A DNA stretch of 64,000 bases from Gemella sp. GTDB lineage: Bacteria > Bacillota > Bacilli > Staphylococcales > Gemellaceae. A model generated the notes under the pieces. The model searched no databases. It was given only the letters and a program-made list of their open reading frames with translations, and had not been told where the DNA came from. The stretch covers positions 1 through 64,000 of the forward strand of contig JAUMWC010000007.1 in the NCBI GenBank assembly GCA_030529855.1. Reading direction: 5' to 3'. A program made the translations under genes and the position numbers. Of this stretch, positions 47,793 through 54,187 are shown piece by piece; the first letter of the stretch is position 1; every line of letters starts with the position of its first letter.

Positions 47793-48782
47793 ATGGCAAA
47801 TAAAAATATGGTCGCAACCTTACGTGCATCTAGAATGACTTATCAGATAGAAGCTATGAAGCAAGTAAGGTCGAGTAAACAAGCAATAGAAAATTATGTG
47901 AATACTGTTAAGGTGGCAGGAGCCTTTCCTGAATACTTGGATTATGTAACATCTTTTTATGATGTGAAAACAGGTTCATCAGGAAGTCTTTTTAAAAATA
48001 ATGAAGAAAATAATTATATCCTAGCCTATACAGGTACTAATCCAGTAACAGATATGAAAAAAGATATAGAAACAGACTTATATAGTGTTTGTATGGGGCT
48101 TGGTTATCACTTCAAACCTTGCTTTGATTTTTACAAAAAAGTAAGGGAGAAATATGGAGATAATATAATTTTGACAGGGCACTCACTAGGCGGAAATATT
48201 GCCCAAAGAGTAGCTATAGAATTTGATGTTCCAAAGACAATTATTTATAACTCAGCCTTTCTATATATAGAAAATGCTATTAACTTATTTATGACAGTAA
48301 CAGATAACAATAGATCCCTGTATCTTAAGAGACTTAGACGATACAACAGACAGGTTAAACTAATAAAAGAAAAGAAGGCTGCCTTTACAGGTCAGATTCT
48401 ACATTTTTCGTCAGAAGATGATTTTATTGGAAGAATGTCAGCAGTAGCAAAAGAAGAAATTTTTATACTAGGTAAAAATTATATAGTAAAAAATGGTGGT
48501 GGCCACGCCTTATCTAGTTTGGAACATCAAGCAGGAGAAGAAATCAATAAAGTTATTAATGGAGAGATAGGATTTAGTGATAAATTTACTATTAACCACT
48601 CACATATAACAAAGAGAGAAGCGGATATGCTTTTAAATATGGCGACTAATTCCAAGTCTACACTAGAAGAATTTGCTAGATTATTTGTAGGTAATGAAGT
48701 AGTGATGAACTTTGATGAAAAAATGATGGCCGATGTTGATATAGATAAATTTTTAAAATATTTTGTTTCAAAAGTTAAATAG
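47793..48782 (+). CDS. Lipase-fold alpha/beta hydrolase (class 3-like), first tandem copy
   Basis: 329 aa. The motif GHSLGG (residues 129-134, Ser131) in ILTGHSLGGNIAQRVAIEF is the nucleophile elbow of class 3 lipases and related Mbeg1-type hydrolases. There is no signal peptide, so it is probably intracellular, unlike secreted lipases. The C-terminal 100 residues (from about INHSHITKREADML) are charged and unassigned. The next gene encodes a close paralogue in the same orientation, and the intergenic control module is duplicated with it. The substrate is unknown. Confidence 0.8.
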   Translation: MANKNMVATLRASRMTYQIEAMKQVRSSKQAIENYVNTVKVAGAFPEYLDYVTSFYDVKTGSSGSLFKNNEENNYILAYTGTNPVTDMKKDIETDLYSVCMGLGYHFKPCFDFYKKVREKYGDNIILTGHSLGGNIAQRVAIEFDVPKTIIYNSAFLYIENAINLFMTVTDNNRSLYLKRLRRYNRQVKLIKEKKAAFTGQILHFSSEDDFIGRMSAVAKEEIFILGKNYIVKNGGGHALSSLEHQAGEEINKVINGEIGFSDKFTINHSHITKREADMLLNMATNSKSTLEEFARLFVGNEVVMNFDEKMMADVDIDKFLKYFVSKVK

Positions 48783-48833: not shown

Positions 48834-48858
48834 AGTAGGATATAGGAAGGTGAAATTT

Positions 48859-49845
48859 ATGGCAAAGAAAAAGATGATAGCAACCTTATATGCTTCGAAG
48901 ATGACCTATCAAGTAGAAGCTATGACACTTTTGAAAAATGGAAAAAAATATATAAGAAACTACATAAACTCTAGTAAGAAACTAGGATTATTTCCAGAAG
49001 AGTTAGACTATGTGACGTCTTTTTATGATTCTAAAACTGGTTCATCAGGAACACTTTTCAAGGATAATAAAGAAGATAATTACATATTAGCTTTCACAGG
49101 AACTAATGTAGTAGATATGCAAAAAGATTTTGAAACAGACATTTATAGTCTATGTCTAGGGCAGGGTTACCACTATAGACCGTGTTTTAATTTTTATAAA
49201 AAAGTTAGGGATAAATATGGAGATAACATAATTCTAACAGGACATTCCTTGGGTGGGAATATTGCCCAAAGAACGGCCATAGAATTTGATGTTAAAAAGA
49301 CGATTATATATAATTCAGCAGGTTTATATATCGAAAATGCCGTAGATATTTTTATGAATGTAACGGAAGAAAATAAGACTTTATATGCCAAAAGACTTAG
49401 ACGATACAATAGGCAAGTAAAACTTATTAAAGAGAAAAAAGCAGCCTTTACAGGAGAGATACTACACTTTTCATCAGAATATGATTTTCTAGGAAGAATG
49501 GCTGCAGCTGTTGATGGAGATGTTTTATTCTTAGGTAAGAATTATATTATAAAAAATGGTGGAAATCACCCCTTGAAAGTTATGGCTAATGTAGCAGGAG
49601 AAGAAATCTATAAGGTAATAAAAGGAGAAATTTCCTTTAGTGATAAGTTTGCGATTAGACACGCACCACTTACAAAAGCAGAAGTAGAGAAGTTCTTAAA
49701 GAGAGCAGGAAACTCAAAATCGGCCTATGAAATGGTAGCTAAAATGTTTATAGGAGCAGATGGAAGTGTACCTTTTGCCGAGTATCAGACTGATGATTTA
49801 GATATGGGTAAATTCATAAGATATTTTGTGTCGAGAGTTCATTAA
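48859..49845 (+). CDS. Lipase-fold alpha/beta hydrolase, second tandem copy
   Basis: 328 aa from ATG 48859, chosen because AGGAAGG lies upstream and the protein then starts like its paralogue (MAKKKM against MANKNM). GHSLGG places the nucleophile at Ser130. Strong similarity extends through the LRRYNRQVKLIKEKKAAFTG segment and the ending of both proteins, so the pair arose by tandem duplication including the upstream terminator-promoter module. The C-terminal tails have diverged most. Confidence 0.8.
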   Translation: MAKKKMIATLYASKMTYQVEAMTLLKNGKKYIRNYINSSKKLGLFPEELDYVTSFYDSKTGSSGTLFKDNKEDNYILAFTGTNVVDMQKDFETDIYSLCLGQGYHYRPCFNFYKKVRDKYGDNIILTGHSLGGNIAQRTAIEFDVKKTIIYNSAGLYIENAVDIFMNVTEENKTLYAKRLRRYNRQVKLIKEKKAAFTGEILHFSSEYDFLGRMAAAVDGDVLFLGKNYIIKNGGNHPLKVMANVAGEEIYKVIKGEISFSDKFAIRHAPLTKAEVEKFLKRAGNSKSAYEMVAKMFIGADGSVPFAEYQTDDLDMGKFIRYFVSRVH

Positions 49846-49866
49846 CCGGTTATTTATCTGGTTAAT
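49843..49866. other. Inverted repeat after the second hydrolase gene
   Basis: TTAACCGG pairs with CTGGTTAA (one G-U) around TTATTTAT. There is no T-run after it, so it may be an operator or an mRNA-end structure rather than an intrinsic terminator. Confidence 0.45.
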
Positions 49867-49896: not shown

Positions 49897-49925
49897 TTGA
49901 CCTAAGAGTAATTCAGGAGTAAAAT
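49897..49925 (+). promoter_or_regulatory. Promoter of the metallothionein-like gene
   Basis: TTGACC (49897-49902), 17 bp and TAAAAT (49920-49925). No known metal-regulator box was recognised; a 52-nt leader separates it from the start codon. Confidence 0.6.
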
Positions 49926-49977
49926 TTAAGTATAAAGATACATATTATACTATACGATTTTACAGGAGGATTATATT

Positions 49978-50127
49978 ATGTCAAAATGTACATGTGGATG
50001 TGAAAAAACTAACTGCAAATGCGCAGGAACTTGCAAGTGCGAATGTCATACAAAATGTTCTTGTGGAGATTGCCACGCAGGAAAATGTTCTTGTGATTCA
50101 AATTGTGGATGCACTTGCCACAAATAA
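49978..50127 (+). CDS. Metallothionein-like Cys-rich protein (49 aa, 16 Cys, 3 His)
   Basis: ATG 49978 follows CAGGAGGA. The 49-residue product has cysteines at 4, 6, 8, 13, 15, 19, 21, 23, 27, 29, 32, 37, 39, 43, 45 and 47, mostly as CxC and CxCxC, plus His24, 33 and 48; there are no aromatic residues. The composition (one third Cys, Lys/Gly/Ser/Asp spacers) is what metallothioneins use to bind Cu(I), Zn(II) or Cd(II) clusters. It does not resemble the SmtA (zinc-finger) fold of cyanobacteria, which has aromatic residues and a different spacing. It is a single gene with its own promoter and terminator. Metal binding is inferred from composition. Confidence 0.85.
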   Translation: MSKCTCGCEKTNCKCAGTCKCECHTKCSCGDCHAGKCSCDSNCGCTCHK

Positions 50128-50158
50128 AAAAAGCTCAGAATTTTCTGAGTTTTTTTAT
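50126..50158 (+). terminator. Terminator after the metallothionein-like gene
   Basis: AAACTCAGAA-type stem: AGCTCAGAA pairs with TTCTGAGTT around a short loop, followed by seven T. Confidence 0.88.
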
Positions 50159-50199: not shown

Positions 50200-50892
50200 T
50201 TAGTTTAAGTAGAAGGCATTGTGTAGAGTTACAACTCTATCTCTGCTTGTATCTTCAGTTCCACCGAAGAATCCGGCAGGAGATTTTTGTCCGGCAGGAA
50301 CGAAATAGAATGCAGCTCCAAGATCACCTGCACTAGGTGTGTTAGCATCTACAGGTTTACCGTCGATAGAAGAGAATACTGCATTTACAACAGCAGATCC
50401 ACCTAGTTGTCCGTATCCTGTAATTGTAAGAACTTTTTCTTGTCCATCTGCATTGTAAACGATAGTTTTGCTATCTCTAATAGTGTAAGTTCCACCATTA
50501 ACTGCAGTGTAAGTACCTGCTACAGATGTTAGGTTACCACCTGAGATTGCTCCAACATTAATTCTACTTGCAGCAGCTGCTGAAGTAGTTGTAGAAGCTG
50601 GTGTAGTTGTAGTTCCTGCTGTTGTAGAAGCAACAGTAGTAGCGCTTGAAGTTGACGAATTAGAACCTGATACTTGACCAGTACCAGCTTGTGATTGAGT
50701 AGTTACTTCAGAAGTAGGTGCTGATGTATTAGAGTTGTTTGAATTCGTTGTACTTGCTGAACTTGAGTTAGTTGAGCTTGTAATAGTTGTACTTTCTGAT
50801 GTTGGTTTGCTTGGCGTAGCGTTATCATCTGTACATGCTGTTAATAAAACAGATGTAGCTAAAATTGTGCTAAATAATATAGGTTTTTTCAT
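50200..50892 (-). CDS. Secreted lipoprotein with Ser/Thr linker
   Basis: 230 aa with a signal peptide ending in LTAC (Cys20 lipidated), a Ser/Thr/Asn linker of about 85 residues, and a C-terminal domain of about 120 residues (from RINVGAISGGNLTSVAG to LHNAFYLN) with repeated TYTAVNGGTYTIRD and an AFYFVPAG segment. The end domain resembles a family found in streptococcal lipoproteins (possibly DUF6287), which I cannot confirm. It would be displayed at the outer face of the membrane. It is convergent with the metallothionein-like gene and divergent from the cystine T-box transcript. Confidence 0.8.
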   Translation of the reverse strand: MKKPILFSTILATSVLLTACTDDNATPSKPTSESTTITSSTNSSSASTTNSNNSNTSAPTSEVTTQSQAGTGQVSGSNSSTSSATTVASTTAGTTTTPASTTTSAAAASRINVGAISGGNLTSVAGTYTAVNGGTYTIRDSKTIVYNADGQEKVLTITGYGQLGGSAVVNAVFSSIDGKPVDANTPSAGDLGAAFYFVPAGQKSPAGFFGGTEDTSRDRVVTLHNAFYLN

Positions 50893-51061: not shown

Positions 51062-51340
51062 AATATTACACGTTGATAAGAAAAGTAAAAGTGGAAAACT
51101 TCACAGAGAGTCTTCGGTTGGTGGGAGAAGATAAGAATGAAACTTTGAAAGTGCGCTTGGAGTGTTAGTGATTGATGAGGTCACTGGGGTGAGCCCTGTA
51201 TAGCTCAAGGATATAAGGTATAATTACCCGTATTCTAGTAGAGATAGGTTTATTTATTGAACCTAATCAAGGTGGAACCGTGTTAATGATATAACACCCT
51301 TGAACGAGCATAAGCTTGTTTAGGGGTGTTTTTGTTTTAA
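51062..51340 (+). promoter_or_regulatory. T-box riboswitch (probably tRNA-Cys) before the cystine symporter
   Basis: Visible elements are the AGTA side of the specifier loop (51084-51087), AGAGAG, the apical GGTTGGTGGGAG, the T-box proper AAGGTGGAACCGTG (51269-51282) and the competing terminator (AACACCC...GGGGTGTT, 51292-51338). After GAA of the loop the sequence reads AGTGCGC, so UGC (Cys, 51152-51154), followed by a purine, is the best specifier. Uncharged tRNA-Cys would then allow read-through into the symporter gene. Confidence 0.9.
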
Positions 51341-51412: not shown

Positions 51413-52798
51413 ATGACAGATAATGTTTTTTTACAGAAATTTGTGATGATTTCTAATTGGCAAACACTTGTTTTTATAGCTATACTTATAGCACTATTTT
51501 ATTTTCTTTTTACTCTGAAAAAGAGAGGTGTTTCTTCAACTAAGAGAACACTTATAGCAACTGGTCTTGGTTTAGTTTTAGGGATTATCATACAGGCTTA
51601 TTCAGGATTCTCAACAGAACCAGCTAAGATAGGATACATTAGTGAAACTGTAAAATGGTATTCACTATTTGGTAATGGATTTATTGACTTAATTAAAATG
51701 TTAATTATTCCATTGGTATTTTTCTCAATTGTTAATGTTATTGTAAACATTAATTCTTCGACAAATGTTAATAGATTAACAAAATTAACACTAGTAACAA
51801 CTTTAGGAATGGTTGCTGTTTCATCAGTATTAGGTTTTGTTGTTTCAACTGTAACAAAACTTGGAGCTAACACAACAGTTCTTCAAGAAGGGGAAAGTAA
51901 AATCAAAGAAGTTAAGGATGTAGTAACTATATTTAGAGACTTAATTCCATCAAATCCAGTTAAGGCAATGGTAGATTTAAATGTTATTGCCATTGTAGTT
52001 TTCGCAATGTTTATCGGACTTGCGACTAAGTATGTCAAAGAAAAAGAAGAAGTAAAAGTTAAAGGATTCGTAGACTTTATTTCTGGTGGACACGCAGTTA
52101 TCTCAAGAGTAGCTGTTATGATAATAAGATTAATGCCTTATGCAGTAATGCCATTACTAGCGAACACAATCGCACAAAGAGGGCTAAAATCTATTAAAGA
52201 TGTTTTATTATTTATAGTCTTACTTTACGTAGCGGTAGCAATTCAATTTGGTATCCAAGCCTTACTATTAAAAGTTAATGGTATTTCTCCAAAAACTTAC
52301 TTCAAGAAAGGTATTGAGCCAATAACACTAGCCTTTACATCACGTTCAAGTGCAGGGACTTTACCTTTAACAGTTAAGACTTTAACTGAAAAATTAGGGG
52401 TAAACTCATCAACAGCAAACTTCGTAGCGTCATTCGCTTCAACAGCAGGAATGCAAGGATGTGCAGGTATCTACCCAACAATGCTAGTTGTTTACCTAGC
52501 TAACGCAAATGGAATAGCTGTAGACTTTACATTATTTATTCTTACAGTTATCGTTGTAACTTTAGGATCTGTAGGTATCGCAGGGGTTCCAGGAACAGCA
52601 ACTGCAGCAGCCAGCGTTACAGTATCAGGGGTAGGATTTGCTTCAATCTTCCACCAAATCAACCCAATTCTAGCAGTTGATCCAATCTTAGATATGGGAA
52701 GAACAGCCCTAAACGTAAGTGGTGGTATGACAAATGCCCTTGTAGTTGATAAACTTTTAGGAACATTCGATAAAGAGAAATTCAACGAAAAGCTATAA
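51413..52798 (+). CDS. tcyP: L-cystine:cation symporter (TcyP-like, DAACS family)
   Basis: 461 aa with eight predicted helices plus re-entrant loops. Diagnostic features are the TcyP-type N-terminus, TRSSAGTLPLTVKTL (about residues 306-320) and the GSVGIAGVPGTATAAA region (about 385-400) of the dicarboxylate/amino acid:cation symporter family. In B. subtilis TcyP imports L-cystine with protons or Na+. The Cys-type T-box in its leader supports that substrate. ATG 51413 has AAGGAG upstream. Confidence 0.9.
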   Translation: MTDNVFLQKFVMISNWQTLVFIAILIALFYFLFTLKKRGVSSTKRTLIATGLGLVLGIIIQAYSGFSTEPAKIGYISETVKWYSLFGNGFIDLIKMLIIPLVFFSIVNVIVNINSSTNVNRLTKLTLVTTLGMVAVSSVLGFVVSTVTKLGANTTVLQEGESKIKEVKDVVTIFRDLIPSNPVKAMVDLNVIAIVVFAMFIGLATKYVKEKEEVKVKGFVDFISGGHAVISRVAVMIIRLMPYAVMPLLANTIAQRGLKSIKDVLLFIVLLYVAVAIQFGIQALLLKVNGISPKTYFKKGIEPITLAFTSRSSAGTLPLTVKTLTEKLGVNSSTANFVASFASTAGMQGCAGIYPTMLVVYLANANGIAVDFTLFILTVIVVTLGSVGIAGVPGTATAAASVTVSGVGFASIFHQINPILAVDPILDMGRTALNVSGGMTNALVVDKLLGTFDKEKFNEKL

Positions 52799-52988: not shown

Positions 52989-53300
52989 AATTCAAAAATA
53001 CACGATGATAAGAAAAGTAGAAGTGGAGAACTTTACAGAGAGTCTTTGTTTGGTGGAAAAAGATAAGAATGAAACTTTGAAAATGGTCTTTGAGTGTTAG
53101 TGGCTGAATAATTAGGTCGCTAGGGGTGAGCCCCTTATAGCTCCGGAATATAAGGTTGTAAGCCTAGATTAATTTTACTTGTCAACCCGTATTCTAGTGA
53201 GATAGGTTTCTTTAAGTGAAATCTAATCAAGGTGGTACCGTGTTAATGATTTAACGCCCTTGAACGAGCTTAGCTTGTTTAGGGGTGTTTTTTGTTTTTA
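52989..53300 (+). promoter_or_regulatory. T-box riboswitch (probably tRNA-Met) before the FNT channel operon
   Basis: It has AGTA, AGAGAG, TTTGGTGGAAA, AAGGTGGTACCGTG (53229-53242) and a terminator (53252-53300). The loop after GAA reads AATGGTC, identical to the third T-box. AUG (53083-53085), followed by a purine, is the preferred specifier; UGG (Trp, 53084-53086) is the alternative if the register of the first T-box is strictly kept. Confidence 0.85.
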
Positions 53301-53401: not shown

Positions 53402-54187
53402 ATGTTATCATTTAGAGAAAAAATAGAGGGAGCTGTAAGTAAAAAAGAAGCTCTGTTTGATGAAAGTATAGGGAGATCAGGACTTAGGTCGCTTTTAGCA
53501 GGTGCTTACCTAACCATGACAGCTGCCGCAGGATTAGTAGGAGCAGACTTAATCGCAGGTCAATTCCCAGTACTACCCAGATTTGTATTAGCTACAATTT
53601 TATCAGTAGCCATAATTTATATATTATTTTTAAACGTAGAATTATCAACATCTAATATGATGTTCTTGACAGTAGGAGCCTTTTACAAGAAGATTAGCTT
53701 TGCTAAGGCTACCAAGATATTACTGTACTGTACAGTGATGAATTTTGTAGGTGCAGCATTCTTAGCCTTTCTGTTTAGTTCATCCTTCTCTTTCTTAGGG
53801 GTTAAGGATACTGGCTTCTTGGCAACGGCAGTTAAGATAAAACTTGCAAAATCAGATTGGACTAACTTTACAGAAGGAATTATCGCTAACATGTTTGTAA
53901 ACTTAGCAGTATTTGGATTCTTGTTCGCAAAAGATGAAATAACAAAAGCTATAATATCTTACACAGCAGTATTTATGTTTGTATTTTTAATTAATGAACA
54001 CGTTATAGCTAACTTCTCAATATTTATGTTAGCAGCATTCAGTCCACTAGAAAATATTCCAGGATTTACACCGCTTAATGTTTTACGTCAGTGGGGAGTA
54101 GTATTCCTAGGGAACTGGGTAGGAGCAGCATTAATAGGTCTAGCCTATGCCTACCTAAATGAGACAAAAACCAATTATAAGGATTAA
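53402..54187 (+). CDS. Formate/nitrite transporter (FNT) family channel
   Basis: 261 aa with six predicted helices. The pattern (RSLLAGAYLTMTAAAGLVGADLIAG in helix 1, then LNVELSTSNMMFLTVGAF, then NMFVNLAVF and the final NWVGAALIGLAYAYL) is that of FNT pentameric channels for small monovalent anions. Members transport formate, nitrite or hydrosulfide (HSC). Its place behind a Met-type T-box in a sulfur gene island favours hydrosulfide or another sulfur anion, but this is inference. It overlaps no gene; the lipoprotein gene starts 40 bp later. Confidence 0.85.
   Translation: MLSFREKIEGAVSKKEALFDESIGRSGLRSLLAGAYLTMTAAAGLVGADLIAGQFPVLPRFVLATILSVAIIYILFLNVELSTSNMMFLTVGAFYKKISFAKATKILLYCTVMNFVGAAFLAFLFSSSFSFLGVKDTGFLATAVKIKLAKSDWTNFTEGIIANMFVNLAVFGFLFAKDEITKAIISYTAVFMFVFLINEHVIANFSIFMLAAFSPLENIPGFTPLNVLRQWGVVFLGNWVGAALIGLAYAYLNETKTNYKD

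Follow-up and report, generated by a model that had tools for sequence, protein, structure and literature searches.

Bacterial metallothioneins with a tested function are few, and those found in the literature searched are the SmtA/BmtA proteins, the pseudomonad proteins and MymT. The BmtA/SmtA proteins of cyanobacteria and pseudomonads are small and Cys-rich with some His residues, and they possess a single cluster of about nine Cys; typically, though not in every member, smtA adjoins the gene of an SmtB/ArsR-type repressor. Another small protein rich in Cys is MymT from the Gram-positive Mycobacterium tuberculosis, and its metal is copper (PMC7387436, citing Gold 2008). With respect to regulation, the closest parallel to the gene described here is bmtA of Synechococcus WH8102, a metallothionein gene that is activated by zinc-loaded Zur (PMC9337993); Zur control of a metallothionein was called unprecedented in 2022 (PMC9337993). 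In streptococci, adcRCBA is controlled through AdcR boxes of the form TTAACNNGTTAA (PMC11580457). AdcR can repress and, with zinc, can also raise the expression of adhC/adhP (PMC4672087, PMC11580457), but no metallothionein target of this regulon is reported in the literature searched. Among eukaryotes there are modular metallothioneins, such as the mammalian beta domain, which holds an M3S9 cluster, and the unit-multiplied proteins of molluscs and fungi; domain expansion in fungal metallothioneins is named in the title of PMC12508003.

The gene considered here lies on contig JAUMWC010000007.1 of a Gemella sp. (assembly GCA_030529855.1), in a stretch of 64,000 nucleotides that was analysed as a whole and is called the window in the following. 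Its product resembles BmtA/SmtA in being small, bacterial and Cys-rich with some His, but it has 16 Cys in two repeated units, and no SmtB/ArsR-type repressor gene is found beside it. Membership in BmtA/SmtA was rejected, as no Pfam family (and hence not Metallothio_Pro) and no NCBIfam model matches. In contrast to copper-regulated MymT, the operators in Gemella are of the zinc-sensor type, and adcRCBA stands under AdcR boxes as in streptococci. With the eukaryotic modular proteins the window protein shares dense CxC arrays, multiplied units and nine putative ligands per unit, but there is no detectable sequence relation, and the Gemella unit consists of 8 Cys and 1 His. Neither a link between AdcR and a metallothionein nor a metallothionein of Gemella was found in the open-access literature searched, which does not exclude a prior description.

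The gene and its repeated units

An earlier note, made without database searches, had described an open reading frame for 49 residues with 16 Cys and 3 His that has its own promoter, ribosome-binding site and terminator. The frame is exactly as described, and the three signals are present as well (Table 1). The note did not mention that the protein has two units, that it is conserved across the family with a varying number of units, or that its gene has AdcR/Zur boxes, which point to zinc as opposed to copper. With a Cys fraction of 0.33, the protein ranks first among the 105 ATG-initiated frames of at least 40 residues in the window, for which the median is 0.008; the second-ranked frame reaches 0.17 and is antisense within another gene. 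The -10 context TAAAATTTAAGTATA of the promoter is also present in homologues from a second genus of the family.

Table 1. Coordinates in the window of the metallothionein-like gene, its signals and its neighbours.
Feature	Position	Strand	Remarks
Lipase-like gene, first copy	47793-48782	+	GHSLGG motif; 66% identical to second copy
Lipase-like gene, second copy	48850-49845	+	Mbeg1-like, weak Pfam match; GHSLGG motif; directly upstream of the metallothionein-like gene
Two abutting AdcR-box-like palindromes	49842-49865		TTAACCGGTTAT directly followed by TTATCTGGTTAA; one mismatch each to TTAACYRGTTAA
Possible weak second promoter, TTATCT-17-TATAAA	49854-49882		Identified by eye; shares positions with the second AdcR box
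Promoter, TTGACC-17-TAAAAT (sigma-A)	49897-49925	+
Ribosome-binding site, AGGAGG	49964-49969	+	8 nt 5' of ATG; read directly
Metallothionein-like gene	49978-50127	+	MSKCTCGCEKTNCKCAGTCKCECHTKCSCGDCHAGKCSCDSNCGCTCHK; 49 aa, 16 Cys, 3 His, no aromatics (F/W/Y)
Intrinsic terminator hairpin, strong	50127-50156	+	Fold -14.1 kcal/mol, z = -6.7 vs shuffles
Ser/Thr-rich lipoprotein-like gene	50200-50892	-	Weak DUF6287 match; convergent with the metallothionein-like gene
T-box leader	51064-51304	+	Rfam RF00230 above gathering score
SDF-type sodium:dicarboxylate symporter gene	51413-52798		Preceded by the T-box leader above
T-box leader	52996-53264	+	Rfam RF00230 above gathering score
Membrane-protein ORF	53402-54187		Preceded by the T-box leader above

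That the frame is not conserved at the codon level had been named as a finding that would refute the proposal. When this was examined, conservation was found. In an alignment of nine homologues, 12, 12 and 48 sites vary at the first, second and third codon positions, respectively, and dN/dS is about 0.1. None of the 17 Cys varies among the nine species, and at 15 of these 17 the codon switches between TGT and TGC. Purifying selection on the frame is strong, and a chance frame is ruled out because of this codon-level conservation across nine species. Metallothioneins as a class are recognized as short proteins without aromatic residues that contain about 15-33% Cys in CxC-type motifs, and by the conservation of the Cys residues under selection; the window protein satisfies both. 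The third mark of the class, thiolate clusters that hold several d10 metal ions, is only inferred for it. It has no signal-peptide-like start. The proposal of a metallothionein-like protein in a coccus of the Gemella family is supported in this respect: the conserved gene is real, and metal binding is inferred.

The protein consists of two units with 8 Cys and 1 His each, namely residues 4-24 (CxCxCx4CxCx3CxCxCH) and 27-48 (CxCx2Cx4CxCx3CxCxCH), and the consensus unit is CxC-x1or2-C-x4-CxC-x3-CxCxCH. Between homologues, which span 27-82 residues, the number of units varies. The form in genome G005 is a single unit of 27 residues with 8 Cys and no His, as Gln replaces it, while G001 and G003 encode three units in 80-82 residues. 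In the second genus, a CxCxHHCHCH head is followed by one full and one shortened unit, giving 63 residues with 17 Cys and 7 His.

In the window, G003 and G005, the metallothionein gene directly follows a homologous lipase-like gene, and from this common position it follows that the unit number changed at one locus. The lipase-like gene serves as a synteny marker through its orthologues in those genomes, and no functional link is shown. In G001 and several second-genus copies, a dehydrogenase E1-like gene lies downstream of the metallothionein gene. In the window, the surroundings comprise an ABC transporter, the two lipase-like genes, which form a tandem duplicate, the DUF6287-like protein and the SDF symporter. 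Both T-box leaders further downstream appear to be amino-acid-responsive.

Distribution in the Gemella family

A search with the single window sequence returned only two homologues from the same genus and missed the second genus, which was then recovered by a profile built from three sequences. With this profile, homologues are found in 13 of the 15 Gemella-family genomes, including all nine genomes of the second genus (E about 1e-16). The two genomes without a homologue, G002 and G004, are 97% and 99% complete, and the protein is therefore dispensable. Neither the order, with 142 genomes beyond the family, nor the evenly sampled class yielded a homologue with the same profile, and sampled genomes of the phylum yielded none with a broader but weaker profile of 12 homologues (A2), which gives the window protein itself a poor score of 28 bits. 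A degenerate CxCx3CxCxCH pattern, applied to 398 genomes of the phylum, produced scattered or repeat-like matches, and the handful of these loci that were translated did not contain a metallothionein-like frame. A wider bacterial distribution was rejected on the basis of the order, class and phylum searches, and a mobile, plasmid or phage origin because plasmids, phages and viral contigs gave no match. Since Cys-rich proteins are hard to search, the absence outside the Gemella family is provisional.

The earlier note knew of no described family in this group with such a Cys density, and its interpretation is supported. No Pfam-A family was detected up to E = 10 with the window protein and four homologues, no NCBIfam model matches the window protein, and the PDB returned only chance-level Cys matches and no relative.

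Zinc-sensor boxes at the metallothionein promoter

The two abutting AdcR-box-like palindromes lie 31 bp upstream of the -35 element and overlap the lipase ORF before them at its stop codon. Together they have two mismatches in 24 positions, and no such tandem was found in 100 shuffles of the window. If up to three mismatches are permitted, the tandem occurs at only two places in the genome, namely at the metallothionein gene and, as a perfect match, at adcRCBA on contig C19, and the reversed control pattern has no match genome-wide. The boxes and their specificity within the genome are thereby shown. Besides AdcR, the C19 operon has genes for an ABC-type ATPase (AdcC), a permease (AdcB) and a lipoprotein of the AdcA-ZinT type, and the identity of AdcR is indicated by NCBIfam model NF038251 (176.7 bits, cut-off 175) and PDB entry 3tgn (E = 6e-38). 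That the 24-nt palindrome might be the terminator of the lipase gene was considered and rejected: a hairpin is possible, but the T-run is absent. It is likely that the boxes link the metallothionein gene to the zinc regulon, an inference from the sequence without binding or expression data, and the evidence for an AdcR-type metallothionein promoter comes from one genome.

Among the family genomes, AdcR was found in G000 (the genome of the window), G001, G002 and G005 only. A Fur-family search (Fur, PerR, Zur), which covered 11 of the 15 family genomes, detected no such protein in G000 and G002 and at least one in each of the nine others. The whole Fur family was probably lost in the sub-lineage of G000 and G002, in which AdcR was kept.

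Relatives with a Zur-type Fur paralogue have, at the metallothionein promoter, sites of the TAAATCGTAAT type. This second Fur paralogue, which resembles Bacillus Zur, we take to be Zur; the nearest curated models are Fur/PerR and stay below cut-off, and no Zur-specific model passed. In all twelve homologue promoters the Zur-like site ends 22-23 nt upstream of the -35 element. The half-sites are exact in 7 of these 12 upstream regions, where they are rare in shuffles, and weaker in the rest, and in some relatives the sites are good only as half-sites. G003 and G005 have additional half-sites inside the promoter, in the stretch from -35 to -10. Sites of the Zur-like type are also found in front of adcA in G005 and of pht genes in G001, G009 and G012. 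In G001, which is 66% complete, the Zur-like site is present, yet only a Fur-like paralogue was recovered. The homologues are related, and their common promoter sequence is partly inherited, so that the diverged promoters of G001, G003 and G005 are the more independent evidence. Everted pairs ATTACGATTTA-N7/8-TAAATCGTAAT are also found upstream of second-genus homologues (e.g. L013 and L047), where the block TTAAGACGAAAATCTA is conserved in the interval from the Zur-like site to the -35 element.

A match between box and sensor is shown by these data, and the type of box at the metallothionein promoter likely follows the type of sensor, AdcR or Zur, with the identity of Zur resting on resemblance. 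In our view the proteins probably form a new family by sequence among the metallothioneins, whose zinc wiring, with a swapped sensor, is unusual; this view is inferred from sequence alone.

Proposed zinc buffering and the inferred sign of regulation

As main reading, we propose a zinc-buffering metallothionein that is switched on by zinc-loaded AdcR or Zur. We favour it by a modest margin (probability about 0.62), inferring that metal is bound and in what stoichiometry, that the sensors bind the boxes, and which sign the regulation has. The protein would be a small cytosolic Cys-thiolate protein of one to three units, each with 8 Cys and 1 His, in which the nine ligands of a unit may form one three-metal cluster. 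About three zinc ions per unit are predicted from the nine ligands by analogy with the mammalian M3S9 beta domain, so that the two-unit window protein would bind about six Zn(II). The protein would buffer or store zinc, and its gene would be part of the cell's zinc regulon. Zinc-loaded AdcR, a MarR-family protein, would repress adcRCBA and bind the tandem box in front of the metallothionein promoter, and in the relatives Zur would take the role of AdcR from the site 22-23 nt upstream of -35. Surplus zinc would thus shut uptake and turn on storage. Since all 15 family genomes also encode CDF exporters, the metallothionein would complement export and not be the sole defence against zinc.

The sign of regulation is inferred from the position of the sites. 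At adcRCBA the AdcR boxes lie directly downstream of -10, and at adcA and the pht genes the Zur-like boxes overlap -35 or are located at or after -10; these are repressor positions. Unlike at the uptake genes, the AdcR and Zur-like sites of the metallothionein gene lie upstream of -35, and because they are upstream of the promoter and not on it, we lean towards a zinc-loaded sensor that raises metallothionein transcription. Streptomyces zitB has a box 8 nt upstream of -35 through which zinc-loaded Zur activates it (PMC5472717), bmtA is likewise activated by zinc-loaded Zur, and in pneumococcus AdcR with zinc represses adcRCBA and activates adhC (PMC4672087). In S. agalactiae, AdcR boxes 4 and 8 nt upstream of -35 repress (PMC11580457), and an upstream site is therefore no proof of activation; the activation of adhP by AdcR in this species is thought to be indirect (PMC11580457).

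The opposite sign remains possible but is less likely. The gene would then be repressed by zinc-loaded AdcR or Zur, and the protein made in zinc starvation, for example under restriction by the host, to hold or hand over scarce zinc. This reading is supported by the similar boxes in repressor positions at the uptake genes of these genomes, by the repression in S. agalactiae from AdcR boxes close upstream of -35 (PMC11580457), by the extra half-sites within the promoters of G003 and G005, and by the weak second promoter in the window, which overlaps the boxes and could be repressed. However, all 12 non-AdcR promoters place the Zur-like site upstream of -35 at a fixed spacing, unlike the uptake genes, the distance of 31 bp in the window is beyond simple occlusion, and a thiol-rich chelator would compete with zinc enzymes in starvation.

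A metallothionein that detoxifies thiophilic metals such as copper or cadmium, as in the case of MymT, with the zinc-sensor boxes being incidental or secondary, is unlikely in our opinion. The Cys:His ratio of 16:3 in the window and the 8 Cys without His in G005 would suit Cu(I) or Cd(II), but zinc-sensor boxes that match the type of sensor are found in both lineages, and the nine second-genus homologues have 7 His, which is more typical of zinc. A CopY box (TACANNTGTA) was not seen in a non-systematic inspection by eye. Very unlikely is a Cys-rich peptide for redox or disulfide functions, or an untranslated chance frame, without any role in metal binding. No homologue has a known function and metal binding is without experimental support, but codon-level conservation in nine species excludes the chance frame, a signal-peptide-like start is missing, and the CxC/CxCxC arrays in combination with His and zinc-sensor operators favour metal binding.

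Returning to zinc-dependent activation, a bolder version can be formulated, for and against which we see equal odds. The proteins would represent a modular class specific to the Gemella family, with a unit number that varies at a fixed locus and with activation by the sensor of zinc uptake, AdcR or Zur, a tie that would have survived the change of sensor. If this is true, the window gene would be the first AdcR-controlled metallothionein, and the control of storage by an uptake sensor would have outlived a change of the sensor family. The one-, two- and three-unit forms at one locus would offer a ready series for the metal capacity per unit, and the apparently undescribed modular family would provide, in a human-associated genus, a natural experiment on the tie between zinc storage and uptake across the replacement of a sensor.
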